From an uncultured Schlesneria sp. (GTDB lineage: Bacteria; Planctomycetota; Planctomycetia; Planctomycetales; Planctomycetaceae), in NCBI GenBank assembly GCA_903904835.1, contig CAIVEI010000175.1, forward strand, positions 1-64,000: a stretch of DNA of 64,000 nucleotides, read 5' to 3'. Below are positions 20,697 to 55,218 of the stretch, piece by piece; the stretch's first letter is position 1; each line of letters opens with the position of its first letter. Under the pieces are notes generated by a model. The model saw only the letters and a program-made list of their open reading frames with translations. It did no database searches and was not told where the DNA came from. A program made the position numbers and the translations under genes.

Positions 20697-20806
20697 GTCG
20701 GAAGACAAGCGAACGGCAGCCATCCTTTGGTGGCGCCGGTCAGTAAGAAAGCGTAAGCCGACCAACGGGAACTTTTTCACAGAAGTTCCCGTTGGTCGGC
20801 TTTTTT
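20697..20806 (+). ncRNA. candidate riboswitch/attenuator leader RNA, copy 1
   Basis: GTCGGAAGAC at the 5' end pairs by GTCGG with CCGAC at 20758-20762 (P1), and by GAC with GTC at 20739-20741. The central hairpin has CGGC/GCCG (20714-20717 with 20735-20738) and CCATCC/GGTGG. The 3' motif GCGTAAGCCGACC runs straight into an intrinsic terminator: AGCCGACCAACGGGAACTT pairs with its full complement and six T follow. CCGAC therefore belongs either to P1 or to the terminator, which is a switch architecture. The next gene is the lmo0937-like protein 106 bases downstream. Confidence 0.75.
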
Positions 20807-20827
20807 CGTTTGATCTGGTCGCTTTGA

Positions 20828-20854
20828 ACACACACACACACACACACACACACA
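20828..20854. repeat. (AC)13 microsatellite
   Basis: 27 bases of pure AC repeat between the attenuator terminator and the start codon of the lmo0937-like gene. The paralogous leader at 36421-36500 lacks it. Length changes by slippage could alter spacing in the 5' leader. Confidence 0.95.
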
Positions 20855-20912
20855 TCTGGTCGCGAATGTCCCGGTCAGTGATTCGAAGTCGATTTGAGAA
20901 CGGAGAAAACAA

Positions 20913-21062
20913 ATGCTGGAAACAATTATCGTCGTGCTCGTGATTCTGTGGTTACTGGGGATGGTGGCGTCGGTCACGGCTGGGGGCTTGATCCATTTGC
21001 TGCTGGTGGTCGCCGTCGTCGTGATCTTATTGCGGGTTATCGGGGGCCGGGCGCCTGTCTAA
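20913..21062 (+). CDS. small membrane protein, lmo0937/DUF5670 type (copy 1)
   Basis: 49 aa, two hydrophobic segments (TIIVVLVILWLLGMV and IHLLLVVAVVVILLRVI) separated by the conserved TAGGLIH turn. GGAG lies upstream of the ATG. The family is small, widespread and commonly found among stress-induced genes, but has no known biochemical role. A near-identical paralogue is at 36501-36650 with the same kind of leader RNA. It is followed 50 bases later by a hybrid sensor kinase on the same strand. Confidence 0.85.
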   Translation: MLETIIVVLVILWLLGMVASVTAGGLIHLLLVVAVVVILLRVIGGRAPV

Positions 21063-21112
21063 CCATCACACCTGTTGTCTCTCCACAAGGAACTTCTGCG
21101 AGTGAATAATTT

Positions 21113-24100
21113 ATGCCGATGCTAGAAGCGCAACACCTGACGGCCCTGATCATCATCGCCAATGAGGAACGGCGGTATTCACTGGACAAGCCACTTCGTC
21201 GAGTCGGTTTTAAAATCCGAGATGCCACGAACGGAGAAGACGGTCTTCGTCTGGCAATGGAAACGCCAGATCTGATTGTGCTTGATCTTCACCTTCCCGA
21301 TATGACGGGATTCGAGGTCTGTTGTCGCCTCAAGGCCCATGCCGCGACGGCCAACATCCCCGTGCTGCATCTTTCCGATGCACCTGTCGAAAGCAGTGAG
21401 TTTTCCCATCACATGGAACGGGGTGACGAAGCCTATCTGACATATCCGGTGGAAGAAGTTGAATTACTTTCTTTCGTGAACACTTTGATTCGCGGTCGTC
21501 AGGCCCAGCGACAGTTCAGCAGCTTTTTAGAAGCCGCACCCGATGCTGTTGTTATCTCTGAAGAGAATGGCAAAATCGTCCGTGTGAATGGACAGACCGA
21601 ACGAATGTTTGGCTATCTGCGGGAAGAGTTGATTGGCAAAGAGGTCGAGCTTCTGTTGCCCGAGCGGCTTCGAGACGATCATCGGACGCACCGAGCCTGT
21701 TACTCGACGAATCCCACCACTCGCCCGATGGGAGCGGGTCTGAATCTGTCAGGTTTGCGGAAAAACGGCACTGAGTTTCCCGTGGAAATCAGCCTCAGTC
21801 CGATTCCCGACCATGAAGGGATACTCATTGCCTGTGTGATTCGAGATGTGACCGATCGCAAGCGGGTGGAAGTCGCTCTTGAGAAGAAGAACGAACGGCT
21901 GCATTTGCTTTTGGAAACAGCGGGGATGCTGCTGTCCGCCGCCGATCCCGACGCGATGCTGCACGACCTGCTCACCAAGTTAGGTCCGCATATGGGTTTG
22001 GACACGTACTTTAACTTCAGAGTCGATGAGAGTGGAGAAGCCTTGAAGCTGGTCTCGTCCGAAGGTGTCTCTGAAGAGTCCATTCATGCGAAAGAGAAGT
22101 TGGAGTTCGGTCAAGCGATCAGCGGTGCCGTCGCCTTGTCTCGCCTGCCCATCGTGGCGAATAACATCCAGCAGTCCGATGACCTGAATACCAGGCTTGT
22201 CAAAATCATTGGCCTGCGTGCCTATGTCTGCAACCCGATGATCTTCGACAACATCCTGCTGGGTACGCTTTCTTTTGGAAGCCGGACGAAAGATGAATTC
22301 GACCCGGACGAAATGGCTTTTCTGCAAACGATTACCCATTATGTCACGGTGGTTTATGCGAACCTGAGGACGCAAGCAGCGGTACGTGAAAGCGAAGAGC
22401 GGCTTCGGTTCATCCTGGAATCGATACCTCAAAAACTTGTTACCACCAAGCCGGACGGAAGCGTGGACTACTTCAATCCACAGTGGATGGAGTACACCGG
22501 CTTGACGTTTGAACAAATTCGGGATTGGGGATGGAAGCAGTTCATCCACCCCGATGACGTAGACGATCACATCCGAAGTTGGCTGTACGCTACGAATACT
22601 GGCGAAGTCTACGAACACGAGAGTCGGTTCCGACGCGCCGATGGTGAGTATCACTGGCACGTCAGTCGTGGCGTACCGATGCGTGACGAATCAGGCCAGA
22701 TCATCATGTGGATAGGGGCCAACACAGACATTCATGGAATCAAGCTGGCAGAAATGGCGATGATGGATTCGGAGGTCCGTTATCGGCGACTGTTCGAGAC
22801 TGCCAAAGATGGCATCCTGATTCTTGACACGGAATCCGGGCGAATCACAGACGCCAACCCTTTCATGAGCGAACTGTTGGGGTACTCGCATGAACATTTC
22901 TTAGGGAAGGAACTGTGGGAGATCGGACTGTTCAGCGACAAAGCAGCCAATGAGGCGGCGGTCCGAACCCTTCAGGCCGCAGGCTACATTCGTTACGAAC
23001 ACCTGCCACTGGAAACGAATACGGGGCTGACGGTTGAAGTGGAGGTTGTCGCCAATGCCTACCATGAAGACAACCACAAGGTGATTCAGTGCAACATTCG
23101 GGACATCACGGAACGCAGCCGATTGGAGACAGAACGGAACCGCCTGGAAATTCAGATGCGGGAGCAAGCCGTCGCATTAGAAGACCTGCACCGCCGCAAA
23201 GACGAATTCCTGGCGATGCTCAGTCACGAACTCCGCAATCCGCTTTCTCCCATCGCCAGTGCTTTGCAACTTCTTGGTCTTCAAAAGAACGAAGATCCAC
23301 TTCAGCAAAAGGCCCGCACGATCATCGAGCGTCAGGTGGGACAACTGACTCGTCTCATTGACGATCTGTTGGAAGTTTCTCGGATCACCACGGGAAGAAT
23401 CCACCTTCAACAGAAACGGGTAACACTGAATGTGATTGTGGAACATGCGGTCGAGACAGTTCGTCCATTGATTGTCCGACACCAGCACGCCCTCACCGTG
23501 TCGTTATCGAAGGAACCGATCTGGGTCTTCGCCGATGCGGCTCGACTGGAACAAGTCGTCATCAACTTGCTGACCAATGCTGCCAAATTCACGCACGATG
23601 CGGGTCACATCTGGCTGGAAGTCCAGCAAGAAGACGACGAATGTGTCTTGCGAGTGAAGGATAACGGGATTGGTATTGCGCCGGAGATTTTGCCACACAT
23701 TTTCGACCTGTTCACGCAGGCGGAAAAGTCGCTTGATCGTTCACAAGGGGGGTTGGGAATCGGGCTGGCTCTGGTACAGCGTATCGTCGAAATGCATAAA
23801 GGACGAGTCGATGCCATCAGTAAATTGGGAGAGGGAACCGAGTTCGTTGTGCATTTGCCGGTCATGATCGCGACGGCAAATCCACCTATAGAAATAGAAA
23901 ACGAAAGCAGACAGAAGGACGATCGTTCCCTGCGCGTATTGGTTGTGGATGACAACGAGGATGCTGCTCAGATGATGGGGATGCTGTTGTTAAAATCAGG
24001 GCATGAGGTTCTTACGGTTCATGACGGTCCATCCACATTGACTGCTGCGCGAGATTTCTGTCCGAATGTCGTGCTGCTGGATATCGGATTACCGGGAATG

Positions 24101-24298
24101 GACGGCTTCGAGGTCGCCAGGAAAATGCGAGAACAGGAAATCTTCAAGGATGTGATCCTGGTCGCCATGACCGGATATGGGCAAGATTCAGACCGGCAGC
24201 GTTCCAAAGAGGCCGGTTTCGATCATCATCTGGTCAAACCTCCTGATTTCAACAAATTACAGCAAATCCTCGCGACCGCCTTAGTGAAAAGAAACTAA
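21113..24298 (+). CDS. hybrid histidine kinase REC-PAS-GAF-PAS-PAS-HisKA-HATPase-REC
   Basis: 1061 aa, no transmembrane segment. Receiver at 8-125 with D58 (IVLDLHLPDMTG); its first acidic cluster is missing (LIIIANEE), so it may be degenerate. PAS at about 135-255 (FLEAAPDAVVISEENGKIV). GAF at about 265-420. PAS at about 425-545 and 555-675. HisKA with H705 ([12 protein letters not shown]). HATPase with NLLTNAAKFT and GLGIGLALVQ. C-terminal receiver with D990 (VLLDIGLPGMDG) and K in LVKPPD. Likely a cytoplasmic phosphorelay sensor with receivers at both ends. It follows leader RNA copy 1 and the lmo0937-like gene; a similar RNA/small protein/kinase order recurs at 36312-38387. Confidence 0.93.
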   Translation: MPMLEAQHLTALIIIANEERRYSLDKPLRRVGFKIRDATNGEDGLRLAMETPDLIVLDLHLPDMTGFEVCCRLKAHAATANIPVLHLSDAPVESSEFSHHMERGDEAYLTYPVEEVELLSFVNTLIRGRQAQRQFSSFLEAAPDAVVISEENGKIVRVNGQTERMFGYLREELIGKEVELLLPERLRDDHRTHRACYSTNPTTRPMGAGLNLSGLRKNGTEFPVEISLSPIPDHEGILIACVIRDVTDRKRVEVALEKKNERLHLLLETAGMLLSAADPDAMLHDLLTKLGPHMGLDTYFNFRVDESGEALKLVSSEGVSEESIHAKEKLEFGQAISGAVALSRLPIVANNIQQSDDLNTRLVKIIGLRAYVCNPMIFDNILLGTLSFGSRTKDEFDPDEMAFLQTITHYVTVVYANLRTQAAVRESEERLRFILESIPQKLVTTKPDGSVDYFNPQWMEYTGLTFEQIRDWGWKQFIHPDDVDDHIRSWLYATNTGEVYEHESRFRRADGEYHWHVSRGVPMRDESGQIIMWIGANTDIHGIKLAEMAMMDSEVRYRRLFETAKDGILILDTESGRITDANPFMSELLGYSHEHFLGKELWEIGLFSDKAANEAAVRTLQAAGYIRYEHLPLETNTGLTVEVEVVANAYHEDNHKVIQCNIRDITERSRLETERNRLEIQMREQAVALEDLHRRKDEFLAMLSHELRNPLSPIASALQLLGLQKNEDPLQQKARTIIERQVGQLTRLIDDLLEVSRITTGRIHLQQKRVTLNVIVEHAVETVRPLIVRHQHALTVSLSKEPIWVFADAARLEQVVINLLTNAAKFTHDAGHIWLEVQQEDDECVLRVKDNGIGIAPEILPHIFDLFTQAEKSLDRSQGGLGIGLALVQRIVEMHKGRVDAISKLGEGTEFVVHLPVMIATANPPIEIENESRQKDDRSLRVLVVDDNEDAAQMMGMLLLKSGHEVLTVHDGPSTLTAARDFCPNVVLLDIGLPGMDGFEVARKMREQEIFKDVILVAMTGYGQDSDRQRSKEAGFDHHLVKPPDFNKLQQILATALVKRN

Positions 24299-24391
24299 TA
24301 ATCCCAAAGCGATTGTCAGCTATTTGTCATGTCAGCATTAGCCCGCGCAGACAATGCCGTGACGCATGTTTCTGCTTTCTTCGTCTCGATA

Positions 24392-24427
24392 TGCCACTGC
24401 TTGACTGAAGAGAGTCAAGCAGTGGTA
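24392..24427. repeat. palindrome of the GTGCCACTG family
   Basis: TGCCACTGCTTGACT (24392-24406), loop GAAGAG, and AGTCAAGCAGTGGTA (24413-24427); one mismatch in a 15-bp stem. Same family as 17769, 48484 and 56955. It lies in the 24299-24645 gap after the hybrid kinase. Confidence 0.75.
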
Positions 24428-24569
24428 CGGTTTTCGAAATGACCTTGCTGTCTCAAAAATACGTCAAAGAGTTGCGGGGATGGGCATCTGCAATTAACCC
24501 CTGGCTGAGCATAACCGGCAGACACTACTACTTTTGTTTAGCCAATCAACCTCAATTCGGATAAACTGA

Positions 24570-24598
24570 TTGTTATTACAAGGAAAAAGGAGTACTAT
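24570..24598 (+). promoter_or_regulatory. putative promoter of leader RNA copy 2
   Basis: TTGTTA (24570-24575), 17-base spacer and TACTAT (24593-24598), a fair housekeeping-type promoter. A related TTGCTA - 16 - TAGGAT lies at 28680-28707 before copy 4. Both are followed by about 40-45 bases of extra leader before the ATCGG motif. Confidence 0.5.
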
Positions 24599-24645
24599 AT
24601 GACGAGTTGAAAAGGTGCTGAGTCAGCAACTCTCTTTCAACAGGG

Positions 24646-24757
24646 ATCGGAAAACTGGATAAAAAGCAGCCCGGCTAATATCGGGAGGCTCGTTAGTAAG
24701 TAAGCCGACGCAATGGAATACCTTTGGGTGTTCTGCTGCGTCGGCTTTTTTGTTTTT
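24646..24757 (+). ncRNA. candidate riboswitch/attenuator leader RNA, copy 2
   Basis: ATCGGAAAAC begins the element. AAC pairs with GTT, and AGC pairs with GCT around the hairpin CCCG/CGGG. The 3' motif AAGTAAGCCGACGC leads into the terminator stem AGCCGACGCA...TGCGTCGGCT followed by six T. The upstream bases 24607-24640 can form an extra hairpin (TTGAAA/TTTCAA around TGCTGAGTCAGCA). The next gene is the DUF3309 protein, 103 bases downstream. Confidence 0.75.
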
Positions 24758-24860
24758 CCGTCCCGTGCGTTGAGTCGACGGGAATCGTCTCTGGTGTTTC
24801 CACGCGTTGTGGATGGATTCGGTCTACCGTCCTGGTCTGATAGAAAAAAGGAAAACGGAA

Positions 24861-25016
24861 ATGCTTGGTACGATCCTGCTCGTGATTTTGATTCTGATGC
24901 TTCTTGGTTCAGTACCTGCCTGGCCCCATAGCAGAAACTGGGGCTATGGTCCAAGTGGTGGGCTGGGGACCATTTTTGTGATTCTGCTGATTCTGGTCTT
25001 GCTCGGCCGTGTCTGA
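24861..25016 (+). CDS. DUF3309 small membrane protein
   Basis: 51 aa: hydrophobic TILLVILILMLLG, the family hallmark PAWPHSRNWGYGPSGG, then a second hydrophobic segment GTIFVILLILVLLGR. DUF3309 proteins are short, widespread in environmental bacteria, and have no known function. GGAAAA lies upstream of the ATG. It is preceded by leader RNA copy 2. A broken paralogue lies at 37058-37213. Downstream, 25076-25102 has a GC-rich hairpin (GCAGC..GGG / CCC..GCTGC) without a T-tract. Confidence 0.85.
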   Translation: MLGTILLVILILMLLGSVPAWPHSRNWGYGPSGGLGTIFVILLILVLLGRV

Positions 25017-25194
25017 GAATCGCTTCAAGCCGTCAATAGTTGTCGTGTGATCTACAGACCGCACAAGCTGATGCGCAGCAGGGGTTCTTCCCCGTGCTGC
25101 GGATTTGAACCGGCGTATTCAATTCAAATACTGACACACTCATTGCATCGCGCTGAACGCCCGATGTTCACAGCAGACGACAGGTTGGGTTCTT

Positions 25195-27897: not shown

Positions 27898-27916
27898 CGT
27901 CGACGATCATCGCCAA

Positions 27917-28360
27917 TCACTTGGACATCGTTTTGCACGACTTTTCACATTTGCGGCATTCTTCGGCGCAGGCCTTCATATGGGCATCCATCGGGAAGGC
28001 TTCGCACGATTTCGCACATTGATCGCAACACTTGGCACAGCATTCGGCCATCACGGCGGCAAGCGGCCCGCCTCGCGCACAGACTTGAGCACAGGCGGCA
28101 CAACTTGTGGCACAGTCCTGACAGTACATCAGGCTGGCCAGGTGTTCCTTCTTGCCATCGGCCGCTAAGTTCGCGCAATGGGTTGAACAGTGGTCGCACG
28201 CTCGCTGGCAGTCAGAACAAGCTTTAGCACATTCTTGCATCGCAGCATGGGACTTCGATTCCGCTGCTTGAGTCTGATGGACAAGCACATCCGCGCCGAC
28301 AATCGTAAGACTGAGCGCCAAAATCGCAGCACCAAATCCGCAGGACATTCGATTCTTCAT
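27917..28360 (-). CDS. exported four-helix Cys-rich copper-binding protein (Csp-like)
   Basis: 147 aa from the ATG at 28360, with AAAAGG 8 bases upstream. A signal peptide (MKNRMSCGFGAAILALSLTIVGADVLVHQTQAA) is followed by about 20 cysteines spaced C-x3-C or C-x2-C along predicted helices (ECAKACSDCQRACDHC, CQDCATSCAACAQVC, ECCAKCCDQCAKSC). This is the pattern of Csp1 copper-storage proteins / four-helix-bundle copper-binding proteins, which load many Cu(I) ions via thiolates. It is transcribed from leader RNA copy 3, divergent from copy 4. Metal identity is inferred from the family. Confidence 0.88.
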   Translation of the reverse strand: MKNRMSCGFGAAILALSLTIVGADVLVHQTQAAESKSHAAMQECAKACSDCQRACDHCSTHCANLAADGKKEHLASLMYCQDCATSCAACAQVCARGGPLAAVMAECCAKCCDQCAKSCEAFPMDAHMKACAEECRKCEKSCKTMSK

Positions 28361-28437
28361 GATCAAGCCTTTTCCTTAAAATCTGTCATCTTGACACCAG
28401 CGCCAGAAATTGACGTCTCGATGCGAGCGACAGAAAC

Positions 28438-28541
28438 AAAAAACCGACGTGATCGAACACACTGATGTGTTCACTCACGTCGGTTTACTCTGAAACAAGC
28501 CCCCCGACACGGCCGGGCTGCTCTTTATCAAGTCTTCCGAT
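28438..28541 (-). ncRNA. candidate riboswitch/attenuator leader RNA, copy 3
   Basis: Read on the minus strand: ATCGGAAGAC at the 5' end (28541), AGC/GCT around the hairpin CCCG/CGGG, then AGAGTAAACCGACG. The terminator follows: AAACCGACGTGA pairs with TCACGTCGGTTT, and a run of T ends at 28438. All signature positions of the plus-strand copies are kept, with AAACCGAC in place of AAGCCGAC, compensated in the terminator's right arm (GTCGGTTT). The Csp-like gene starts about 77 bases downstream. Confidence 0.75.
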
Positions 28542-28752
28542 AATTGCCGCGAGTATGCTATCACGTTGAATGGGGAAAGACGACTGCTTGTTTGAAATCA
28601 AAATCCGTGACAGGCGATATATCCAAACGGAGATATTCCGTGTTTCCTTCCTTTTCTCTGAATAATTGTTCTTAAGTGATTGCTATTCTAAAAAAATCAT
28701 GTAGGATCAAATCAGTGAAGTGAGTCGAGGTGAAGCCTTATCTCCCTGCCAC

Positions 28753-28859
28753 ATCGGAAAACTAGATAGAAAGCAACTCGGCTTATACCGAGAGGCTGGT
28801 TACTGAGTAAGCCGACGCGATGAAATTCCTTTTGGTGTTTCATCGCGTCGGCTTTTTTT
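28753..28859 (+). ncRNA. candidate riboswitch/attenuator leader RNA, copy 4
   Basis: ATCGGAAAAC, AAC/GTT pairing, AGC/GCT around hairpin CTCGG/CCGAG, then GAGTAAGCCGACGC. The terminator stem AGCCGACGCGATGAAA / TTTCATCGCGTCGGCT is perfect over 16 bp and followed by seven T. Against copy 2 the hairpin changes CCCG/CGGG to CTCGG/CCGAG, a compensatory change. A TTGCTA-16-TAGGAT promoter candidate lies at 28680-28707. The next gene is the 61-aa membrane protein at 29025. Confidence 0.78.
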
Positions 28860-29024
28860 GTTTTTTAACTTGCAGCGATGGCTCATTAAAGAGTTTGAAG
28901 TTCGTAGCACATGATATTTCCTGTGACTATTTGTGATTCTCAGCACCAAAGCTTGTGGTCGAAGCGCTCTGGAAAGAGATCGCTCATTGTGACCAACGAC
29001 GTTTCAATTCACATGGGGTGACAA

Positions 29025-29210
29025 ATGCTAAATCTCGCAGTGACCGCTTTTCCGCTGGCGATGGCCGGAGATTCGTTGGCATACCTGTTAGTGGGCGGCG
29101 GCGTTATTGGGGCGATGGTCAGCATGGTTATCGCGAAAACGATTAAGCAAGTAAACGCATTTAGTCAGGATCACCGCCAAGCTAAATATAAGACGCGTGA
29201 CCTTGTCTGA
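29025..29210 (+). CDS. small single-pass or two-segment membrane protein
   Basis: 61 aa. LAVTAFPLAMAG could be a signal or first helix and AYLLVGGGVIGAMVSMVIA is a clear transmembrane segment, followed by a charged tail (KTIKQVNAFSQDHRQAKYKTRD). GGGGTGAC precedes the ATG. No family was recognised. It belongs to the set of tiny membrane proteins in this region that are preceded by the structured leader RNA (copy 4, 165 bases upstream). Confidence 0.65.
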   Translation: MLNLAVTAFPLAMAGDSLAYLLVGGGVIGAMVSMVIAKTIKQVNAFSQDHRQAKYKTRDLV

Positions 29211-29383
29211 CCGATCTGTCGGCCTGTTCTTTAGTTGCAGCGTCTGATTCCGGCGACCTATTGAATGAGTCACATCCGTCGTGCTCTTTCAGGTTGACAC
29301 AGTTGATCGCAGCGGAATGCTGTGGCGAGGGTGAGTCGATCGGAATAGGCATAGAGGTTTCTGACGAGTGAGGAGGTATTTCA

Positions 29384-31930: not shown

Positions 31931-32275
31931 ATGATGAAACGACGGCTTTACTTGATGATTCTGCTACTGGGTATGCTCGTCATCACTGCTGGCGAGAGTC
32001 TTGCATACGGTCCGTATAACAACGGATATGGGCGAGTTGGCCCTGGTCCTCGCCGATATTACGGTTATGGAAATGGCCGTTATGATAACGAGTACGGCGC
32101 AAGAAGGGTAAACCCTTACAACTATTCCAACTATGGAACTGGCCCGTACGGTAATGGTTATATCGGCAACGGGTATGGATACGGAAATGGCTATGGTGGC
32201 TATGGAAACGATTACAATTACGGAAATGGATTTGTCTACCGAGGCCCATTAGGATTCGGACTTTCCATATTCTAA
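31931..32275 (+). CDS. secreted Gly/Tyr/Asn-rich low-complexity protein
   Basis: 114 aa from the ATG at 31931 (MMKRRLYLMILLLGMLVITAGESLAYG), with AAAAGG upstream; the start gives a clear signal peptide. The mature part is almost only G, Y and N, with repeats such as GNGYGYGNGYGGYGND and ends in GFVYRGPLGFGLSIF. Such sequences occur in sticky or amyloid-like surface proteins. Function unknown. Confidence 0.75.
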   Translation: MMKRRLYLMILLLGMLVITAGESLAYGPYNNGYGRVGPGPRRYYGYGNGRYDNEYGARRVNPYNYSNYGTGPYGNGYIGNGYGYGNGYGGYGNDYNYGNGFVYRGPLGFGLSIF

Positions 32276-32311
32276 AATGAACCAGTTGTGCATTGACGAT
32301 ACGAGATCAGG

Positions 32312-32363
32312 AGCCGACGTGATGGAATTCCCTTCAAGGCGTTCTGATGCGTCGGCTTCTTTT
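32312..32363 (+). terminator. terminator-only relic of the leader RNA family, upstream of mgtA
   Basis: AGCCGACGTGATGGAATTCC...GATGCGTCGGCTTCTTTT matches the terminator halves of copies 2 and 4 closely (GCCGACG, ATGGAAT, GTTCTG, GTCGGCTT) but the stem has mismatches. No ATCGGAA or central hairpin is recognisable upstream. It lies 35 bases before the MgtA start. Confidence 0.55.
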
Positions 32364-32398
32364 CGTCCCGGGAACTTTCTTTCGCCGTCTGGAACCAA

Positions 32399-36311: not shown

Positions 36312-36420
36312 GTCGGAAGACAAATGAACGGCATCCGCCATTTGGCGGGGCCTGTCAGGGAAAAAGCGTAAGCCGACCAACCGGAACTTTTTAACAGAAG
36401 TTCCAGTTGGTCGGCTTTTT
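36312..36420 (+). ncRNA. candidate riboswitch/attenuator leader RNA, copy 5
   Basis: GTCGGAAGAC pairs GTCGG with CCGAC and GAC with GTC. The central hairpin is GGC/GCC plus CCGCCA/TGGCGG. The 3' motif is GCGTAAGCCGACC, then terminator stem AGCCGACCAACCGGAACTT / AAGTTCCAGTTGGTCGGCT and five T. Compared with copy 1 the central stem has changed (CCATCC/GGTGG to CCGCCA/TGGCGG) while pairing is kept. The lmo0937-like copy 2 follows 80 bases later. Confidence 0.78.
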
Positions 36421-36500: not shown

Positions 36501-36650
36501 ATGCTTGAGACAATTATCGTCGTACTCGTGATTCTGTGGTTGCTGGGAATGGTCACTTCCGTCACAGCAGGCGGATTGATCCATTTGCTGCTGGTCGTCG
36601 CCGTGGTCGTCATTTTATTGAGGATTATCGGGGGCCGGTCGCCCATCTAG
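36501..36650 (+). CDS. small membrane protein, lmo0937/DUF5670 type (copy 2)
   Basis: 49 aa and only four residues different from the paralogue at 20913-21062 (T for A, I for V, S for A, I for V). Same two hydrophobic segments and TAGGLIH turn. It follows leader RNA copy 5 and precedes the 76-aa membrane protein by 43 bases. The near identity of both gene and leader points to a recent duplication of an RNA-plus-gene cassette. Confidence 0.85.
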   Translation: MLETIIVVLVILWLLGMVTSVTAGGLIHLLLVVAVVVILLRIIGGRSPI

Positions 36651-37256: not shown

Positions 37257-38387
37257 ATGCTGCAAACGATGAACACTGCTCAACAATTAGCGGCACTCGT
37301 CAAACAGGAACTTCAGGATTTACTTTCGAGATGGCGGCAACAAGTGCGGGAACTTCCCTGTGCGCGGCACCTTGATATCCCAACGCTCAATGACCATATA
37401 CCAACAATACTTGTCGAATTGGCAACGGCGCTCGAATCCGATACCGGCCAGACGATCCCTGAATCGCTCCACGAAGAGAGTGCCCCCGCTCATGGTGTTC
37501 AACGTGTCGAAGATGGATTTGATATTGAAGAGGTGGTTGCAGAATACAATATCCTTCGGGGTTGCATTCACGATCTTGGTGATCGCCACGGAGTGAGCCT
37601 GCAGGGGCGACCTTTTCATATCATTAACCGTGTCTTTGATCATGCGATCGGCTTGGCACTGCAATCTTACGCGACTCAGCGTGCGATGGAGGTGCAGCAA
37701 CGCCGGGAAGAATACCTCGCGTTTGTTGCCCACGATCTTCGAACTCCTTTGAGTGCGATTTCTCTTGCTGTGCAAATCCTTGAGCTGACAATTCCTGAGC
37801 GGGAAATTGTCCCCGAAGCGGCGAAGATCTTTAATGCCTTGCGTCGCAACGTGACGCAACTCGAAAAACTCGTCGACAAGGTCCTCGAGGAGAATGCGAA
37901 TCTTAAGGCTGACACTGGACTCAAACTGGAAAAACGAGAGTTCGACTTGTGGCCGCTTGTCGAGTCACTGATTCGCGATCTGCATCCCTTGGCAATGACT
38001 TCCAAGACTCATTTGATCAATCAGGTTCCAGACGATTTGATTGTTTTTGCAGATGCAAGTGTGTTGAGGCGGGTCTTTCAGAACCTAATTGCCAACGCCA
38101 TCAAATACACCCCGGAAGGTGAAGTGACTGTGGGGGCAAAAGTACAGTCTGCGGAAGAAAGCGTTGAGTGCTGGGTGACTGACACTGGGAAGGGAATCTC
38201 GAAAGAGTATCTCGATCGGATCTTCGACAAAGGAGAATCCGATCCGAATAGTGAAGGGGGATTCGGGCTGGGGCTTGCCATCGTAAAGGTGTTTACCGAG
38301 GCGAGTGGTGGCCAAGTGACAGTCGAAAGCCGGGAAGGAATCGGATCGACCTTCCGATTTTCACTTCCGAACAAAATGAATTTGTAA
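37257..38387 (+). CDS. sensor histidine kinase with RsbRD-like N-terminal domain
   Basis: 376 aa; ATG at 37269 is an alternative start. Residues 10-135 are helical and resemble the RsbR/RsbT co-antagonist N-terminal (RsbRD_N) sensor region (LLSRWRQQVRELP... EVVAEYNILRGCIHD). HisKA has its histidine in FVAHDLRTPLSAI; the HATPase has NLIANAIKYTPEG, DTGKGI and GGFGLGLAIV. No receiver and no transmembrane segment, so a soluble kinase. It closes the cassette leader RNA 5 / lmo0937-like / 76-aa protein / DUF3309 remnant. A stressosome-like input is inferred from the N-terminal domain. Confidence 0.88.
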   Translation: MLQTMNTAQQLAALVKQELQDLLSRWRQQVRELPCARHLDIPTLNDHIPTILVELATALESDTGQTIPESLHEESAPAHGVQRVEDGFDIEEVVAEYNILRGCIHDLGDRHGVSLQGRPFHIINRVFDHAIGLALQSYATQRAMEVQQRREEYLAFVAHDLRTPLSAISLAVQILELTIPEREIVPEAAKIFNALRRNVTQLEKLVDKVLEENANLKADTGLKLEKREFDLWPLVESLIRDLHPLAMTSKTHLINQVPDDLIVFADASVLRRVFQNLIANAIKYTPEGEVTVGAKVQSAEESVECWVTDTGKGISKEYLDRIFDKGESDPNSEGGFGLGLAIVKVFTEASGGQVTVESREGIGSTFRFSLPNKMNL

Positions 38388-46853: not shown

Positions 46854-46870
46854 AGTTCTGGAGAGACGTG

Positions 46871-48463: not shown

Positions 48464-48483
48464 TGTGTTGTCAAGTCTTAAAG

Positions 48484-48596
48484 TTCGGGTAGTGTGCCAC
48501 TGAATCGGAATCTTCGGCAACGCAGTGTCTTCTCGATTGTCGAGGCAACCCAAAGAGCACAGGGTGACCGAAGATGGTCATCCAGTGGCACCCGAA
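48484..48596. repeat. 113-base element of the GTGCCACTG repeat family
   Basis: It begins TTCGGGTAGTGTGCCACTG and ends CAGTGGCACCCGAA, so the ends are inverted repeats. The inside has CTTCGGCAACGCAGTGTCTTC and GACCGAAGATGGTC, both matching the repeat at about 17733-17808. It separates DUF1549 from DUF1501 in the operon without a T-tract. Confidence 0.75.
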
Positions 48597-48651
48597 TATT
48601 GTGATTGGACCACGCACTAGCCAATATCTTAGATAAGAATTAAGGCGAATC

Positions 48652-49971
48652 ATGTCTAGTTTCAATCAGATTTCACGGCGACGAAGTTTGCAGGCAATCA
48701 TGGCCGGCACGTTGGGAATTTCAAACTCGGGCTGGCTGCCGCAACTCGCCACTGCGGCGGCAGATGATCCCCTTCGGAAGCGAAATTGTATTTTGCTTTG
48801 GATGAATGGCGGTCCCAGCCAGACAGATACTTTTGACCCGAAGCCAGATCATCCGAACGGTGGTCCCTTCAAGACGATATCGACATCGACTGCGGGGTTG
48901 TTCCTGAGCGAACACCTGCCGAAGCTGGCGACTCATTCGAATGACCTGGCCGTGATTCGATCGATGGAGACTCGTGAAGGGGATCACGGACGTGCGACAT
49001 TCCATTTACGAACGGGCAATCTGCCACAAGGAGCAATCCAGTTCCCAGTGCTCGGGGCACTAGTCGCTCATGAGCGACAGCAAAACCTGGATCTTCCTGG
49101 GTACGTGAGTGTGACGACACCTCGATTGTTTTCTCCTGAATCGATTTCCGCCGGTTTTTTGGGTCCCAAGTTCTCACCGCTCATGGTGGGGCAGCGAGAC
49201 GCGACGCTCGGCTTTCAAGCCGAATCCGGTGGTACGTCGCTCAAGGTTCAAGACTTGGAACGACCACGGCGAATTGATTCTCTCAGGTCGCAACAACGAC
49301 TTGATTTGCTGGCGGACCTGACGGAGGAATTCATGGGAACGCATCCTGGGTTGGGAACGTCCGGTCATCGCTCAGCCTACGAACAGGCAAACCGATTGAT
49401 GAAGCCCGAAGCGGCTCGCGCGTTTGACATTGATGACGAACCGGCTGCGCTGCGCGATCAATATGGAAGAAACCGGTTTGGCCAGGGATGCCTGCTCGCG
49501 CGCCGCTTGATCGAGCGAGGAGTTCCTTTTGTCGAAGTGACGCTCGGCGGCTGGGATACGCACGATGATAACTTTACGCAAGTTGCAAATCTTTGCCGTA
49601 CCCTCGATCCGGCCTGGTCGACCTTGCTGGACGATCTTCGGTCGCGTGGGCTTTTGGAGGAGACCCTGGTTGTCTGCATGGGTGAATTTGGTCGTACTCC
49701 TGGTATCAATCCTCGACAGGGGCGTGATCATTATCCCAATGCCTGGAGCGTCGTCCTGTCCGGCGGTGGCGTAAAGGGCGGTTCCGTTGTTGGTCGAACA
49801 AGTCGTGACGGAATGACTGTCGAGGATCGGTCAACATCGGTCCCTGACATTCTGGCGACAATTCTGTTGGCGTTGGGACTCGATCCCAAGAAGCAAAACA
49901 TGTCCAACGTGAATCGGCCAATTCGCCTGGCAGATCCCGATGCAAAGCCCGTCACGGAGATTTTGACGTGA
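48652..49971 (+). CDS. DUF1501 exported protein
   Basis: 439 aa. N-terminal [14 protein letters not shown] looks like a twin-arginine signal. Family blocks: [98 protein letters not shown]. DUF1501 proteins resemble sulfatase/alkaline phosphatase-fold enzymes (D, H and GWDTH metal ligands). Partner of DUF1549 upstream. It overlaps the EF-hand gene by 4 bases (GTGA). Confidence 0.92.
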   Translation: [439 protein letters not shown]

Positions 49972-51395
49972 TCTTGATATTGTTCAGTCTCACGTTGTTC
50001 GGAGCAGAACCGACAGGCCCCGTCCTGCGGATTCCCGGCGAGACATCGACGAGCACGATACATTTGTCGGTATCTTATGGCGGAAAAACCGCTGACGATG
50101 CCTGGTCCGAATTTCTCGATCGTTGGTCGGATCGGTTTGATATCAATCGTGACGGGAAGTTAAGTCGCAGTGAAGCCGAGGCCGTTCCAGCCCTGTCAAA
50201 TTCAACGGGTTCAATCATCCGCGTCGATTTTTCCGGAGCAGACCTGAATGTCGATGAGTTGGTCAGCAGGGAAGAGCTTCAACTTTTTTATCAAGCTCGT
50301 GGCATTTGCAGCGTCAACGCGGCAATAACGGCACCGGATCGTTCCGCGATCCAAACGGGCGACATACTGTGGAAATTGCTCGATCAAGATCACGATGGTC
50401 GATTGTCTGGTGATGAACTTGCCGCGTCTTCACAGTTATTGAATCGTTGGGATCTCAATGAAGACGAATGCCTGAGCGTCGATGAGCTGAAAACAAAAAC
50501 TGTTTCAAACGTTTCCCAAACGTGGCCCCAAATCGAATGGTTGCTCACACAGAAAGTCACTGCAGTTTCGGAAACGATTCCGATTCAGCTCGATGCGTTG
50601 AATCGGGATTCTTCCGATGGTCGAACTTCAGAAGCTTCCGTCATCGTCGGACTCGAACTTCTGGGCCGAAAGCGTCTACGAGTTCGACTCCCTTTGGTCA
50701 ATGTCGTTGTGCAGCTTGCAGAAGGTTCGGTGCAGAAGATTATTGCCGGGCAGCAGTATTTGATCGGTGAAATCAACAGCTCGCAATCGGCCGGTGCGGG
50801 GATTGAAGCGAGCCAAATAGAATCCGGCTCAACAACTGAATGGCTTCTACCACTTTTCAAGGTCGTGGATTCAGATCGTAATGAGAAACTGAGCGAGTTG
50901 GAAATCAAGTCGTTTGTCGCCTTGCTTGCTGAAGGGGCCGCTGCACAGTTATCGATCGTCTCGACGATACGGGGCCGCAATCTATTCGACCTGTTGGACG
51001 GTAATGCCGATGCGCAACTCGACTCGAAAGAATTGAACGCGGCAAAAGACCTGATCAACGAGTCGGCGCGCAATAAAGTGTTGCCTAAGCATGTCAGTGG
51101 ACTCTCGCAGGAAGACATCCCGTTGAGTCTGGTCATTGATATTCGGCGCGGTCCCATTTCTGGTCGTTTCGGACGACTGCGAATTGCCACGCGTCAAGTC
51201 GAATTACGGCAACATTCAGCACCGATGGTTCTGCCTCGTTGGTTTACAGCCATGGATCGGAATCGAGATGAGACACTTTCGCGATCGGAATTCATTGGGC
51301 CTCCGCAACGCTTTAGGGAGCTTGATCGTAACTCGGATGGACTGATCACGAGTGACGAAGGACTCTTCGTGTCGCCGGAAAGTCAGGCGAGATAA
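49968..51395 (+). CDS. exported EF-hand calcium-binding protein
   Basis: 475 aa from a GTG that overlaps the DUF1501 stop. Short signal peptide, then about seven EF-hand loops: DINRDGKLSRSEA, DQDHDGRLSGDEL, DLNEDECLSVDEL, DSDRNEKLSELEI, DGNADAQLDSKEL, DRNRDETLSRSEF and DRNSDGLITSDEG. Loops with missing acidic residues (NEDECLS) may not bind Ca2+. Last gene of the DUF1549-DUF1501 group; probably a calcium-dependent surface protein. Confidence 0.85.
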   Translation: MILILFSLTLFGAEPTGPVLRIPGETSTSTIHLSVSYGGKTADDAWSEFLDRWSDRFDINRDGKLSRSEAEAVPALSNSTGSIIRVDFSGADLNVDELVSREELQLFYQARGICSVNAAITAPDRSAIQTGDILWKLLDQDHDGRLSGDELAASSQLLNRWDLNEDECLSVDELKTKTVSNVSQTWPQIEWLLTQKVTAVSETIPIQLDALNRDSSDGRTSEASVIVGLELLGRKRLRVRLPLVNVVVQLAEGSVQKIIAGQQYLIGEINSSQSAGAGIEASQIESGSTTEWLLPLFKVVDSDRNEKLSELEIKSFVALLAEGAAAQLSIVSTIRGRNLFDLLDGNADAQLDSKELNAAKDLINESARNKVLPKHVSGLSQEDIPLSLVIDIRRGPISGRFGRLRIATRQVELRQHSAPMVLPRWFTAMDRNRDETLSRSEFIGPPQRFRELDRNSDGLITSDEGLFVSPESQAR

Positions 51396-51751
51396 GAAAG
51401 TCAAACGCGTTTCATTTTGATTTGAACCACGATTTCAATTGGGACGCCTGAGTTGTGTCCAATCATCTTTCAGAGAACTGTCACGGGAAAACGACGTCAA
51501 GGGTTTAATAAAGCGCTGAAAACCTGAAGTTCCACCGGATCAGAGTCTACTCACCAGTTTCGTCATAATCGGCATGTCTGCTGCCACCGCTTCATTTTGA
51601 CATGACGATTCTGAAATCCACTCCATTCGCTGCGTGATACGTCCATCCCATTTCAAATGTCGTGGAATGTTTGTTCTGCCCGTGCCCCAAGTGACGGATT
51701 TCCGGGCGACAACCAGCACGTTCACAGCTCGCAATTGGAAGGGTATTCACA
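51396..51751. other. intergenic stretch without recognised features
   Basis: 356 bases after the EF-hand gene. No convincing gene, repeat or strong hairpin was seen. It must hold the end of the long operon and the promoter of the next gene. Confidence 0.5.
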
Positions 51752-52288
51752 ATGCGTCGACTCATTCGCTCGTTCGCTTTTTTCATTTCAATGACCACAA
51801 TTTTCGTCAACACTTACGCCGAAGACGAACCCGCGGCACCAACGATTACTGATTCGGTCGTCGCGGCAGTGCCATCAGTTGCTGATTCTGGCGTCACGGC
51901 GACACCGCCTGCGGCCGAAACGCCGTCAGCGACTTCTGCCACGCCCGCTCCAGCCATCCGGATTCTTGATCTCTCCGGTTGTTGGAATGGTTCCTGGAGC
52001 AGTTGTGTTAACGGTCACAACGGCCCGATGCGTGCCAGTTTCACTCGGTTGTGCAATGGAAATTATGAGGTCACATTCGCGGGCCGTTTCTGCAAGCTGA
52101 TTCCATTCCGCTATAAAACGACACTTAATGTGACTGGCTATTCGGACGGTGTCGTCTATCTTTCCGGCAGCCAGAACCTCGGCCCGATTTTCGGCACGTT
52201 CACATACAATGCCTGGGCCAATGACCGTCAGTTCGTCTCGGGATACAGTGCCAGCAAGGACCAGGGACAATTTGTTCTTTCACGTTGA
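51752..52288 (+). CDS. secreted protein of unknown function
   Basis: 178 aa. Signal peptide (MRRLIRSFAFFISMTTIFVNTYA), then an Ala/Pro/Ser/Thr-rich linker, then a compact beta domain from residue 75 (LDLSGCWNGSWSSCVNGHNGPMRASF...). The four cysteines CWNGSWSSC, RLCNG and RFCKL suggest disulfides. No known family, although the SGCWNGSWSSC opening resembles lipocalin-like or adhesin-type domains. Confidence 0.7.
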   Translation: MRRLIRSFAFFISMTTIFVNTYAEDEPAAPTITDSVVAAVPSVADSGVTATPPAAETPSATSATPAPAIRILDLSGCWNGSWSSCVNGHNGPMRASFTRLCNGNYEVTFAGRFCKLIPFRYKTTLNVTGYSDGVVYLSGSQNLGPIFGTFTYNAWANDRQFVSGYSASKDQGQFVLSR

Positions 52289-52321
52289 AAACGTTCCGCG
52301 TTCAATTGCGCATTAAACGCC

Positions 52322-53986
52322 TCAAGGTTTCAAATCCCACTGCTTGAGTTTCTTCACTGCCGTTCCGTACGGGCCGAGTTGGTAAACCGCAGCTTTCGTT
52401 GGTGAGAACGCGAACGGTGCAAACGGTTCGGCGAGCAACTGGTCGAGATAGTCCTTCGTGGCGACGCCGGTACTGACGTGCGGGTTGAAGTTCTCACCCG
52501 ACATTTTCGGCACAAACGTAGACACATAATCAATGAGTGCCGCGTCGTATGCAGGATTGTCGTGAGGAGCGGTGAATGCGCCGATGGGGCCGGTGTTTAA
52601 TATGAATGGCTTCGCGGCGGCGATGATCTCTGCCTGCAGCTTCAGTATCTCGGGAGTTGGTTTTGCGCAGGTTCCCGCGAGTCCCGTTGCGCCAGCCGGT
52701 GTGTAGTAATGCTTGAATGCCTCCAGCTTTATTTTGTTGACATCGGCATGGGCAAGCACCTTTTCTACTACGGCATAAACCTTGTCCAAATCGGCGGTAG
52801 GAACAAAACACTGTAGCATCGTGATGTGCGGACGATGAGTCGCATCCAAGGCGAAACCTTTAGGGAAGACTTTCAACAGCCGGGCATTTACTGCACCTGC
52901 ATGCTCGATCATTGTCGCGTCGGGTTCGAGCAGGATGTCAATTGCCGTGACAGGGGATTGCGCGACTGAAAAGACCTGCTTCCAATCATTTTTCATACTG
53001 ACGACTGTCCAATCATTTTGTTTTGCCGTTTCATCAAGGGCCGGTGGAAAGGCTCCCAATTTAACGTCAGGCAAGCCGCGTGCTGGCCCATACGCGTATT
53101 CGCGTGCCGAATCGTCGTGCAATACCAGCAGCATGAACCTTTTGCCGCTGCCCCCTTGTGTATATTCGAGCATCTGCCGGTCGCCATCAGAGTTGCCGAA
53201 GGCGGCAATGGGCCTGCGTCCGATGTGTTGATGGATGCCGACCGGCTTGCCATGTTTATCGTCAACAAAGTTCAATTCCGGCAGACGCAAAAGAACAGGC
53301 TGACCATCACGCACGTCAAACTTTGTCTTGATGCTGCTGCCGATGACCTGTTCGGGTGGTATCCCATAAACCATCTCAGACCAGGGGCGCATGAATTCGA
53401 TCCCGCCACCCGAGACGATGAAGTTTTTAAAGCCATTCGCTTTCAGATACGCGAGGACTTCAAGCATCGGTTGATAGACGCATTCGGTGAACGGTTTCTG
53501 GTACTTTGGATGCTTGGCAGTCGCGAGCCAGTCCTTGACGATCTTTTCAAATTCCACCGTCGTCATCCCGGCATGTGTTGCCGAGACGATTTCGAGCAAC
53601 GCGTGTTCGCCACCCGAGAGAGCGGTTTTCAAATCACCCTTAAGCAATGAAGCGAATGGCTCCTTCTCTTTCCATTCGGGATGTTGCGGCGCGAGCGCCT
53701 TGATACGGTCCAAGGTGAAAAACAACTGAACTGGTATGGGTTGCTCGCACCAGAGAGTGCCGTCATTGTCAAACGTCGCGATCCGTTCTGCGACCGGCAC
53801 AAAATCGGGTGAGCCCGGTTTGGTGACCTTTTCGACAAAAACGATGATCGACTGTTTGGCTTTGCCGTCGTTCCAGGAGGGGAGTGGATCATCAGCTCGC
53901 GAATTCGTTGGAGCGAGCGACAACACGAAAGCAAGGAAGGCTGTAACGAGGTATGGTTTTCGCGTTGTTGTCATGGTTGTAATCAC
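52322..53986 (-). CDS. exported HAD phosphatase fused to a 2H phosphoesterase-like domain
   Basis: 554 aa. Signal peptide to about residue 31. Residues 60-330 are a haloacid-dehalogenase fold: motif I FDNDGTLWCE (D73, D75), motif II SGGGIEFM, and GNSDGDRQML as motif IV, as in secreted phosphoserine phosphatase-like HADs. Residues 345-550 carry the two H-x-(T/S) motifs of 2H phosphoesterases, RPHITML and NPHVSTG, about 135 residues apart, in a fold like 2'-5' RNA ligases/cyclic phosphodiesterases. An exported HAD-2H fusion is unusual; it could process phosphorylated nucleotides or sugars outside the cell. Confidence 0.8.
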   Translation of the reverse strand: MITTMTTTRKPYLVTAFLAFVLSLAPTNSRADDPLPSWNDGKAKQSIIVFVEKVTKPGSPDFVPVAERIATFDNDGTLWCEQPIPVQLFFTLDRIKALAPQHPEWKEKEPFASLLKGDLKTALSGGEHALLEIVSATHAGMTTVEFEKIVKDWLATAKHPKYQKPFTECVYQPMLEVLAYLKANGFKNFIVSGGGIEFMRPWSEMVYGIPPEQVIGSSIKTKFDVRDGQPVLLRLPELNFVDDKHGKPVGIHQHIGRRPIAAFGNSDGDRQMLEYTQGGSGKRFMLLVLHDDSAREYAYGPARGLPDVKLGAFPPALDETAKQNDWTVVSMKNDWKQVFSVAQSPVTAIDILLEPDATMIEHAGAVNARLLKVFPKGFALDATHRPHITMLQCFVPTADLDKVYAVVEKVLAHADVNKIKLEAFKHYYTPAGATGLAGTCAKPTPEILKLQAEIIAAAKPFILNTGPIGAFTAPHDNPAYDAALIDYVSTFVPKMSGENFNPHVSTGVATKDYLDQLLAEPFAPFAFSPTKAAVYQLGPYGTAVKKLKQWDLKP

Positions 53987-54120
53987 TTCACTTCGGTGGA
54001 CGAGCTGTTTCTGACGCTGTGGAATCCGGTCGAAACTTTAACTTGAGTCGCTGTCGGAAGACAACGACTTTTATAACTCCTTGTCCAATTTCAGACGTGG
54101 TTTAGGAATTTGTAAATGCC

Positions 54121-54159
54121 AGCAGGGACAGGTCAAATCTCATTTGACCTGTCTCTGCT
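54121..54159. repeat. 18-bp palindrome downstream of the DUF3494 gene
   Basis: AGCAGGGACAGGTCAAAT, a 3-base loop, and ATTTGACCTGTCTCTGCT; one mismatch in the stem. There is no T-tract on either side, so it is listed as a repeat rather than a terminator. Confidence 0.7.
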
Positions 54160-54200
54160 ATCCCCTGGAACGGAGAGTTTGGATTTCTGCGGCCTGAGAA

Positions 54201-55076
54201 TCAAAGGCAAATCGCCGTTTTTTGGATGGCGGAGACGTATCGTTTTCTCAACAAGAACAGGGCCACCATTCCCGATGTGAGGAGGGCGAAGGAACCGGGT
54301 TCGGGAACAGTAGACGAACCTACCGGGACGATGTTGCCCAGGCTGTCGTACATCAGACCGCCGCTCAGCGTGCCGTAGTCAGGAGGGGGAGAAAACTGTG
54401 AAAGAGTGTTGGAGTCCATCGTCACGGCCCCTGTCTCCGCCAAGGCTCTGCCGTTGTCAATCGTTGCGCCCGAGTTAAGTGTGATGTTGGCGAATGCCAG
54501 GATATTTCCCTTAAACGCGGTCGTGGTTCCGAGGGTCGCTGAACTGCTGACCTGCCAGAATAGTCCGTTGTCAGTCCCGCCGTGAGAGCCGACGTTGATC
54601 ATATTTACTGACGAGGCGATGGCGGTTGTGAGGGCACTTCCGACTTGAAACACCCAGTATGCGTTATTGTTTCCTTGAGCATCGAGAGTCAGCGTTCCCG
54701 TTAACTGCGCCTCACTATCAAACCTGTAGACTCCTGAAGTGAGTGACAGCCCGCCGAGGTCTTGTCCGGACAAGTTTTGATTGGGGGTCATGGCCTGCAG
54801 GCCGTTGTAAGCCTTCGTGACGTCGGTCTGGGCCAGTCGTGCAACGGCATCATCGGCGTGGTACGTTCCGTTAAGCGTGATGGAACCCGTCCCCGTAATC
54901 GCGCTGCCGGCTGAGACCCCCACGTTTCCAATGATGAAGGTCAGGCCGGTATTGGTCACTGTCGAACCACCAAGCACGGTGAAGTTCTCGGCCGATTCAA
55001 GAATTCCGGCTGCGGCGGGGAGGGCCAAAGCCGAGAACGCCACAAGTGACAAGGGGATCAAGTAAGCAATTCGCAT
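54201..55076 (-). CDS. DUF3494 ice-binding-like PEP-CTERM protein
   Basis: 291 aa. Signal peptide ends near LPAAAG. Residues 30-240 show the DUF3494/ice-binding beta-solenoid pattern (FTVLGGSTVTNTGLTFIIGNVGVSAG, AYNGLQAM, LTSGVYRF, LTLDAQG, NVGSHGGTDNGLFWQV, TALFKGNILAFANITL). C-terminal VPEPGSFALLTSGMVALFLLRKRY is a PEP-CTERM tail. It follows leader RNA copy 6 by 35 bases, the shortest distance in the family. Binding of ice is not implied; many relatives are adhesins. Confidence 0.88.
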   Translation of the reverse strand: MRIAYLIPLSLVAFSALALPAAAGILESAENFTVLGGSTVTNTGLTFIIGNVGVSAGSAITGTGSITLNGTYHADDAVARLAQTDVTKAYNGLQAMTPNQNLSGQDLGGLSLTSGVYRFDSEAQLTGTLTLDAQGNNNAYWVFQVGSALTTAIASSVNMINVGSHGGTDNGLFWQVSSSATLGTTTAFKGNILAFANITLNSGATIDNGRALAETGAVTMDSNTLSQFSPPPDYGTLSGGLMYDSLGNIVPVGSSTVPEPGSFALLTSGMVALFLLRKRYVSAIQKTAICL

Positions 55077-55111
55077 TTCGAAGTCTGCTGAAAAAAGTTG
55101 TCAAACTCAAC

Positions 55112-55218
55112 AAAAAACCGACGTGGCAGAGCACCCAGATAGGGGGGGGCCACGTCGGTTTACGCCTCACCAAGCAAGCCGGTCGATCCGGGTTGCTTAT
55201 TGATAGTTGTCTTCCGAT
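55112..55218 (-). ncRNA. candidate riboswitch/attenuator leader RNA, copy 6
   Basis: Read on the minus strand: ATCGGAAGAC at the 5' end (55218), AAGCAA/TTGCTT around hairpin CCGG/CCGG, then GGCGTAAACCGACG. The terminator stem AACCGACGTGGC/GCCACGTCGGTT ends in six T at 55112. The loop contains a run of C (eight G on the plus strand). The helix flanking the hairpin is six base pairs here. It precedes the DUF3494 PEP-CTERM gene. The remaining gap 55219-55577 shows no further structure. Confidence 0.7.

Follow-up and report, generated by a model that had tools for sequence, protein, structure and literature searches.

The question raised by a 64,000-nucleotide stretch of DNA from an uncultured Schlesneria sp. 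(contig CAIVEI010000175.1 of assembly GCA_903904835.1, positions 1 to 64,000; hereafter the window) is what role is played by a structured leader RNA that occurs six times in it, each time followed by an intrinsic terminator and a gene. The six copies belong to a real and sizeable family of putatively cis-regulatory RNAs, detected so far only in Planctomycetota. The reading that we prefer, with a probability of roughly 0.55, is that the leader would act in cis on transcription termination and would serve as a transcriptional ON switch of a stress regulon.

All six copies proposed in the initial annotation were found at their positions and on the expected strands, at 20698(+), 24647(+), 28540(-), 28754(+), 36313(+) and 55217(-). 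Each copy runs straight into an intrinsic terminator of the form CCGAC...GTCGG-T(5+), which is followed by a gene on the same strand. The copies can be divided into a common type (24647, 28540 minus and 28754) and three divergent members (20698, 36313 and 55217 minus). The motif GTAARCCGAC occurs six times in the window as an exact match and 13 times with at most one mismatch, compared with a mean of 4.8 in shuffled sequences, none of 100 of which reached 13. The motif TCGGAARAC by itself is present at chance level (50 matches versus 47 expected), and only the combination of the parts is unusual. A covariance model was built from 34 of 60 listed units (alignment A3), three of which came from the window, and this model recovered all six copies with E-values of 1.3e-29 to 3.6e-12, including the three that were not used for training (20698, 36313 and 55217, with E-values of 2.2e-12, 5.6e-13 and 3.6e-12). 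The same three copies yielded E-values of 0.008, 4.4e-5 and 6.4e-5 when the whole genome was searched with an aptamer-only model. Rejected as further copies were a candidate at 32256, which consists of a terminator without a rod, the sequence TCGGAAGAC at 54054 (12.9 bits, E 0.19) and antisense matches of the model, which represent terminator palindromes.

The structure of the leader was derived from 132 sense copies, with the positions of the rod numbered 1 to 62. The basal helix P1 (2-4/59-61, CGG/CCG) is followed by a purine-rich 3x3 internal loop (5-7/56-58, AAR/AAR), the helix P1b (8-10/53-55, ACU/AGU), a second loop (11-13/50-52) and the helix P2 (14-16/47-49, UAA/UUA). The rod continues with an A17.G46 apposition in 112 of the 132 copies, positions 18/45 and the helix P3 (19-21/42-44), then with A22.G41 (85/125) and an adjacent G.A or A.G at 23/40 (68/124), and it ends in the helix P4 (24-28/35-39), which is capped by a variable loop. 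Among the helices named in the initial annotation, the CGG/CCG core, the AGC/GCT-type helix and the variable stem-loop were retained, whereas the RAC/GTY helix was dropped: its pairing is at chance level (7-48 in 124/131 copies versus 122.8 expected, 8-47 in 108/132 versus 108.0 and 9-46 in 122/132 versus 122.2), none of its three pairs showed a two-sided change, and the ACU/AGU and UAA/UUA helices take its place. Likewise, the suggested TCGG/CCGA pairing was reduced to the three base pairs CGG/CCG, the outer U1-A62 pair being formed in 100 of 132 copies versus 100.5 expected.

Compensatory changes, which had been claimed for the six copies, were also observed in the wider family. In a sequence-only alignment of 90 copies (A8), 93.3% of the cells were paired and 15 of the 17 pairs showed two-sided changes; none of 500 shuffles reached any of the five observed measures, and slid controls were lower on all of them. 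A8 contains 90 of 101 references, as 11 were removed by hand for being divergent or awkward to align, and rows outside 56-63 nucleotides (nt) or more than 90% identical had already been dropped; a further alignment (A6) was made from 100 loci. A tree-based covariation test, performed with a custom script rather than R-scape, with two near-identical rows of the 132 dropped and with a heavy-tailed null, was significant for P3 (19-44, E 5e-7), for P4 (24-39, E 8e-4; 28-35, E 0.013; 26-37, E 0.044) and for terminator pairs, and every one of the 17 pairs with E<0.5 belongs to P3, P4 or the terminator. The support for P1 and P1b consists of rare compensations in otherwise near-invariant pairs, namely G3A/C60U (L107) and G4A/C59U (L186) in one copy each for P1, and C9U/G54A in two copies (L058, L105) and U10A/A53U in eight copies for P1b, with A8G accompanied by U55C in L128, a locus outside the 132. 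The structure of the divergent window copies 1, 5 and 6 is predicted from the alignment to the full model (R1) and from single-sequence folding, in which P1 reached probabilities of 0.94, 0.88 and 0.995.

An intrinsic terminator follows all 22 rods detected in the genome to which the window belongs; across the 132 copies, the 8-nt tail contains five to eight T residues. The CCG of the P1 3' strand is also part of the terminator 5' arm, as had been noted initially, and the two folds are predicted to be mutually exclusive by computation. In the modelled nascent RNA ending at the rod, the mean probability of P1 was 0.98 (above 0.5 in 131/132 copies), whereas in the modelled full-length RNA including the terminator it was 0.001 and the basal pairs of the terminator reached 0.99 (above 0.9 in 130/132). 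The two competing folds average -21 and -28 kcal/mol. Since the terminator is favoured at equilibrium, termination would be the default state and read-through would need something that holds the rod, and this requirement points to an ON polarity.

The proposed mechanism would operate as follows. RNA polymerase would synthesize a 5' hairpin (P0), which is optional, followed by the rod hairpin of approximately 62 nt, with P1, the AAR/AAR purine loop, P1b, P2, P3, the A.G-rich loop and P4 in this order. The P1 3' strand together with the next bases would form the 5' arm of the strong terminator, which, if the RNA is left alone, would displace P1 and stop transcription. By holding the lower, conserved portion of the rod, an effector would keep P1 closed and block the base of the terminator beside the U-tract, and the gene would be read; in this way, one signal could reach 8 to 27 dispersed transcripts per genome in the seven copy-richest genomes. 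The leader would resemble an ON riboswitch or antiterminator that overlaps a terminator. Of what was suggested initially, the structured leader, the shared CCG and the downstream genes, which are of stress type, were recovered; regulated read-through, its ON polarity and a globally acting effector that is a small molecule or an ion, not a protein, are what we infer.

The leader is embedded in a recurrent arrangement of upstream and downstream elements. A P0 hairpin directly 5' of the rod was detected in 61 of 132 copies (z below -1.5), compared with 15 of 132 in a control stretch further upstream. The promoter-like pattern TTGCTATTC-N15-18-TANNNT precedes 66 of 132 copies versus a shuffled mean of 10.5 and a maximum of 17, a partly circular comparison because 60 of these copies had supplied the consensus. 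In 77 of 99 copies, the longest open reading frame (ORF) within 900 nt past the terminator shares the strand of the leader, compared with 41 of 99 upstream. The downstream genes of the window were largely identified as expected, with lmo0937/DUF5670 twice, DUF3309 and an Ice_binding (DUF3494) protein with PEP-CTERM; the 61-amino-acid (aa) protein is present but matched no Pfam or NCBIfam family, and the Csp-like assignment is weak (Csp1 family, 32 bits at a cut-off of 100).

A tally based on BLAST comparisons with 33 reference proteins, which are themselves downstream ORFs so that single-member families are self-hits, assigned 92 of the 132 copies and left 40 over. The resulting groups are MpsC (13), Csp-like proteins (7), ice-binding proteins (7), DUF3309 (6), BON (6), PAS proteins (6, in two groups), CsbD (4), small response regulators (4), KaiC (4, in two groups of two), lmo0937 (3), FtsX (3), type III polyketide synthase (2), TspO (1), DUF4142 (1) and others, with kinases also among the downstream genes; Pfam supports representatives of these families, most of which have links to stress, the envelope or signalling. 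In window copy 1 and L071, lmo0937 comes first, but these two copies were tallied under the PAS kinase that follows, as the longer protein scores higher. MpsC was confirmed by Pfam in 10 of its 13 copies (L200 included) and assigned by BLAST grouping in the remaining three, and it is the target that the most distant hosts have in common, including the Phycisphaerales and Roseimaritima records. An IMG/VR contig with a match to a GpA-type terminase carries rod, terminator and MpsC gene (L260:2402-2934, minus strand), which suggests that the leader and its target are located on a phage or prophage.

The six copies are only a part of a far larger set. The aptamer-only model (R2) detected 22 sense copies in the 8.18-Mb genome of origin (G000), and the full model R1 recovered the same 22, all with terminators; they include clusters of six on the contig of the window (C175), six in C70 (72.5-87.8 kb) and three in C22 (66.1-73.2 kb). 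The scan of planctomycete genomes proposed at the outset revealed the family in 19 of 59 relatives at E<=0.001 and in 15 of 392 genomes evenly sampled from the phylum at E<=0.01. Two of the latter matches (G389 and G189, aptamer-only E-values of 0.0064 and 0.0086) are probably due to chance, as no such terminator is present in the next 60 nt. The highest copy numbers were 27 in G005, 21 in G000 under stricter filters, 17 in G001, 16 each in G002 and G013, 12 in G022 and 8 in G015, with fewer in the others. A scan of 84,980 genomes with the exact consensus yielded 76 stretches, all from planctomycete taxa according to their titles (Schlesneria, Planctomyces, Planctomicrobium, Planctomycetaceae, Pirellulales, Roseimaritima, Phycisphaerales and Kuenenia-labelled metagenome-assembled genomes). 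As this pattern has 29 specified positions, three of them two-fold, and misses diverged copies, it is only for the exact consensus that the family can be called phylum-restricted.

Potential partners of the leader were searched for in 10 copy-bearing and seven copy-free genomes with estimated completeness of 91-100%, in which a gene missing from the assembly would be misread as absent. The RelA/SpoT synthase domain was detected in none of the ten copy-bearing genomes and in a single copy-free genome among the 17 (positive in 11 of 14 control genomes), and the CAT_RBD domain of BglG-type proteins in none of the 17 (positive in 4 of 14 controls). ANTAR was found in four of the 17 genomes, including the copy-bearing G013, G022 and G334, and in none of 14 control genomes; it is absent from the other seven copy-bearing genomes (G000, G001, G002, G005, G011, G015 and G372). 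With RelA/SpoT and CAT absent from all ten and ANTAR from seven, guanosine tetra- or pentaphosphate, (p)ppGpp, is an unlikely effector, as are antiterminators of the BglG-type CAT and ANTAR classes. Strong GGDEF matches were obtained in 13 of 17 genomes, including six of the ten copy-bearing ones, whereas G000, G001, G002 and G005 have only marginal, partial matches (best E-values 3e-6, 4e-5, 1.5e-4 and 2.4e-4), three of them just above the curated cut-off. These four related genomes agree with one another and contain 21, 17, 16 and 27 copies, respectively, while G013 with 16 copies is GGDEF-strong. As a strong match is missing from four genomes, that of the window included, cyclic di-GMP (c-di-GMP) is a doubtful effector. 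The cyclic di-AMP (c-di-AMP) synthase domain DAC is present in all 17 genomes, the seven copy-free ones included, and does not discriminate; c-di-AMP is a possible effector.

Several observations weigh against a regulated ON switch. In 121 of 132 copies the terminator exceeds the rod in stability, and the 3-bp P1 might always be displaced. In the tree-based test, P1 (E >=190) and P1b (10-53, E 14) are too invariant to be significant alone, and P2 is just suggestive (14-49, E 10; 15-48, E 6; 16-47, E 210). A large share of the invariance of P1 stems from the exact fetch patterns, which 94 of the 132 rows fit, and contrary variants occur in P1 and P1b (G4A without compensation in L102, C59A in L077, U55A in L199). 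Both A8 and R2 lack copies 1 and 5 and the copy 6 subtype, and the folding probability of P1b is low in copies 1 and 5 (0.65 and 0.62, compared with 0.91 in copy 6). The distribution in the phylum sample is patchy, and the downstream genes point to no single ligand. Moreover, a lone terminator of the same type, with GCCGACG...CGTCGGC arms and no rod, is present at about 32311-32366, and the longest downstream ORF is on the opposite strand in 22 of 99 copies. These last two points would suit an arrangement without any switch, in which a promoter and a short terminated RNA, either a trans-acting small RNA or an insulating terminator, precede genes by chance, and the completeness of the unit, from predicted promoter and 5' hairpin to structured RNA and strong terminator, would fit it as well; we nevertheless regard it as improbable in view of the same-strand gene in 77 of 99 copies and the recurrence of MpsC in distant lineages, once on a phage-like contig. 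As an observation in its own right, the lone terminator lies after a tyrosine/glycine-rich ORF, and this type of terminator is used alone too.

If the rod does control termination, it might be bound by a dedicated RNA-binding protein in the manner of LicT/SacY, PyrR or ANTAR systems. The junction-less rod with its purine-rich internal loops resembles the antiterminator hairpins recognized by such proteins, and ANTAR is encoded in three of the ten copy-bearing genomes, among them the copy-rich G013 and G022; this explanation is rather unlikely given the distribution of CAT_RBD and ANTAR, with ANTAR missing from the genome of the window itself, and a CsrA site (GGA in TCGGA) is disfavoured, as the GGA is lost in six of 132 copies, five of which keep P1 pairing. 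A physical sensor, in which the equilibrium of rod and terminator responds to temperature or ionic strength and no dedicated effector takes part, would accord with the two competing folds and with the cold- or osmotic-type functions downstream (ice-binding, BON, CsbD, DUF3309), yet the unpaired AAR/AAR and its flanks are conserved beyond the needs of stability, even if the fetch patterns exaggerate this conservation, and we consider such a sensor quite improbable. The clustering of copies (six on C175, six on C70, three on C22) and their patchy distribution might also suggest a mobile cassette resembling a miniature inverted-repeat transposable element or a repetitive extragenic palindrome, with no regulatory role. 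This possibility is very remote: by eye, homology is limited to promoter, leader and terminator, the arms vary while pairing is kept, and the copy at 28740-28860 matched none of 72,556 plasmid records.

In accordance with the initial annotation, in which no named riboswitch class had been recognized, no family of Rfam 15 reached its gathering cut-off on the window copies, and among 20 further loci only tmRNA was detected, not overlapping a copy. A permissive search of two stretches gave sub-threshold matches only, of which mir-5984, placed on the copy 1 terminator hairpin, was the best (31.7 bits at a cut-off of 95). No description of the leader RNA was found in literature searches, in which the structure of Rhodopirellula-1 was not compared, and none of the planctomycete terms searched for was found in the part of PMC8632094 that was covered.

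Several known systems share features with the leader. The GEMM-I c-di-GMP regulons of the Geobacter type comprise many copies per genome before unrelated genes, and the leader is similar in this respect, which suggests a global signal; it differs in that neither GEMM-I nor GEMM-II matched at the Rfam cut-off and in that four of the five tested genomes with at least 16 copies are GGDEF-marginal (E 3e-6 or weaker). The ribonucleic antiterminator (RAT) of BglG, SacY and LicT is a short rod with internal loops that overlaps the 5' arm of a terminator; the leader is about twice as long, and the corresponding CAT_RBD protein was not detected. T-box, PyrR, ANTAR and ribosomal-protein leaders govern termination or translation, but none of them matched at the gathering score and their gene context is unlike that of the leader. 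The ligands of the crcB and pfl RNAs are fluoride and ZTP (5-aminoimidazole-4-carboxamide riboside 5'-triphosphate), respectively. In the crcB and pfl candidates, an intrinsic terminator shares sequence with the 3' portion of the conserved domain, the stabilization of which raises expression, as described in PMC2864571. The leader has no match to these families at cut-off and is predicted to be a single rod without a junction. A further candidate, Rhodopirellula-1, is described in the same 2010 survey as probably cis-regulatory, ambiguous as an RNA and without an Rfam number, with occurrences in Proteobacteria and Planctomycetes (PMC2864571). The leader might be identical to Rhodopirellula-1, or distantly or partially described under this name; in a comparison by its table row, the exact-consensus scan gave no proteobacterial match, which speaks against identity.

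Within the preferred reading of an ON switch, the leader might tentatively be regarded as a riboswitch class of its own, with a global stress signal as ligand, perhaps a new nucleotide messenger or an ion. A conserved aptamer with significantly covarying helices (P3 and P4) is located in the 5' leader, and the expression platform is exclusive with it in the folding model. Such a class would govern a general stress response at the RNA level in bacteria without (p)ppGpp synthesis by RelA/SpoT and, in several of the copy-richest genomes, also without a clear c-di-GMP synthase. To our knowledge, little is known about the coordination of stress genes in planctomycetes. The size of the regulon and the absence of the RelA/SpoT domain from 16 of 17 planctomycete genomes make the nature of the signal an interesting question, and one RNA element before up to 27 transcripts provides a direct handle on both regulon and signal. 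A ligand, if found, would indicate a phylum-wide signalling molecule. The analysis also provides a defined structure, two covariance models and a list of targets, and the recurrence of MpsC in several lineages, with a phage-like contig as one instance, suggests a specific and testable physiological link.

Coordinates of the leader copies, associated elements and downstream genes in the window
Feature	Position	Strand	Basis
Copy 1 rod/aptamer, divergent subtype with longer 3' joining strand	20698..20761	+	covariance models
Copy 1 intrinsic terminator, 5' arm begins in the CCG of the rod	20757..20804	+	model and folding
lmo0937/DUF5670 membrane peptide, 49 aa, after copy 1	20913..21062	+	family match
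Copy 2 predicted promoter, TTGTTATTAC; TACTAT 17 nt after TTGTTA	24570..24598	+	consensus only
Copy 2 5' hairpin P0	24606..24641	+	arms read by eye; statistics at group level
Copy 2 rod/aptamer	24647..24708	+	covariance models
Copy 2 intrinsic terminator	24704..24749	+	model and folding
DUF3309 gene, 51 aa, after copy 2	24861..25016	+	family match
Cysteine-rich protein, weak Csp1 copper-storage family match	27917..28366	-	TIGR04401, 32 bits, cut-off 100
Copy 3 intrinsic terminator	28439..28484	-	model and folding
Copy 3 rod/aptamer	28480..28540	-	covariance models
Copy 4 predicted promoter, TTGCTATTC; TAGGAT 16 nt after TTGCTA	28680..28707	+	consensus only
Copy 4 rod/aptamer	28754..28815	+	covariance models
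Copy 4 intrinsic terminator	28811..28856	+	model and folding
61-aa hydrophobic protein, no family match	29025..29210	+	Pfam/NCBIfam search
Copy 5 rod/aptamer, divergent subtype as copy 1	36313..36376	+	covariance models
Copy 5 intrinsic terminator	36372..36419	+	model and folding
lmo0937/DUF5670 membrane peptide, 49 aa, after copy 5	36501..36650	+	family match
Ice-binding-like (DUF3494) PEP-CTERM protein, after copy 6	54201..55076	-	family match
Copy 6 intrinsic terminator	55113..55159	-	model and folding
Copy 6 rod/aptamer, divergent subtype	55155..55217	-	covariance models

Further features of the window were recorded alongside these elements. A short (AC)n run is located at 20828-20854, between the copy 1 terminator and its gene, and copies 3 and 4 are arranged divergently within one intergenic region (28439-28856), with similar pairs in relatives (loci L056, L062 and L073). 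Downstream of copy 5, the region 37257-38387 encodes a histidine kinase with an RsbRD_N domain of the general stress type, and the minus strand at 52322-53986 encodes a HAD-type hydrolase fused to a domain of the 2'-5' RNA ligase superfamily.

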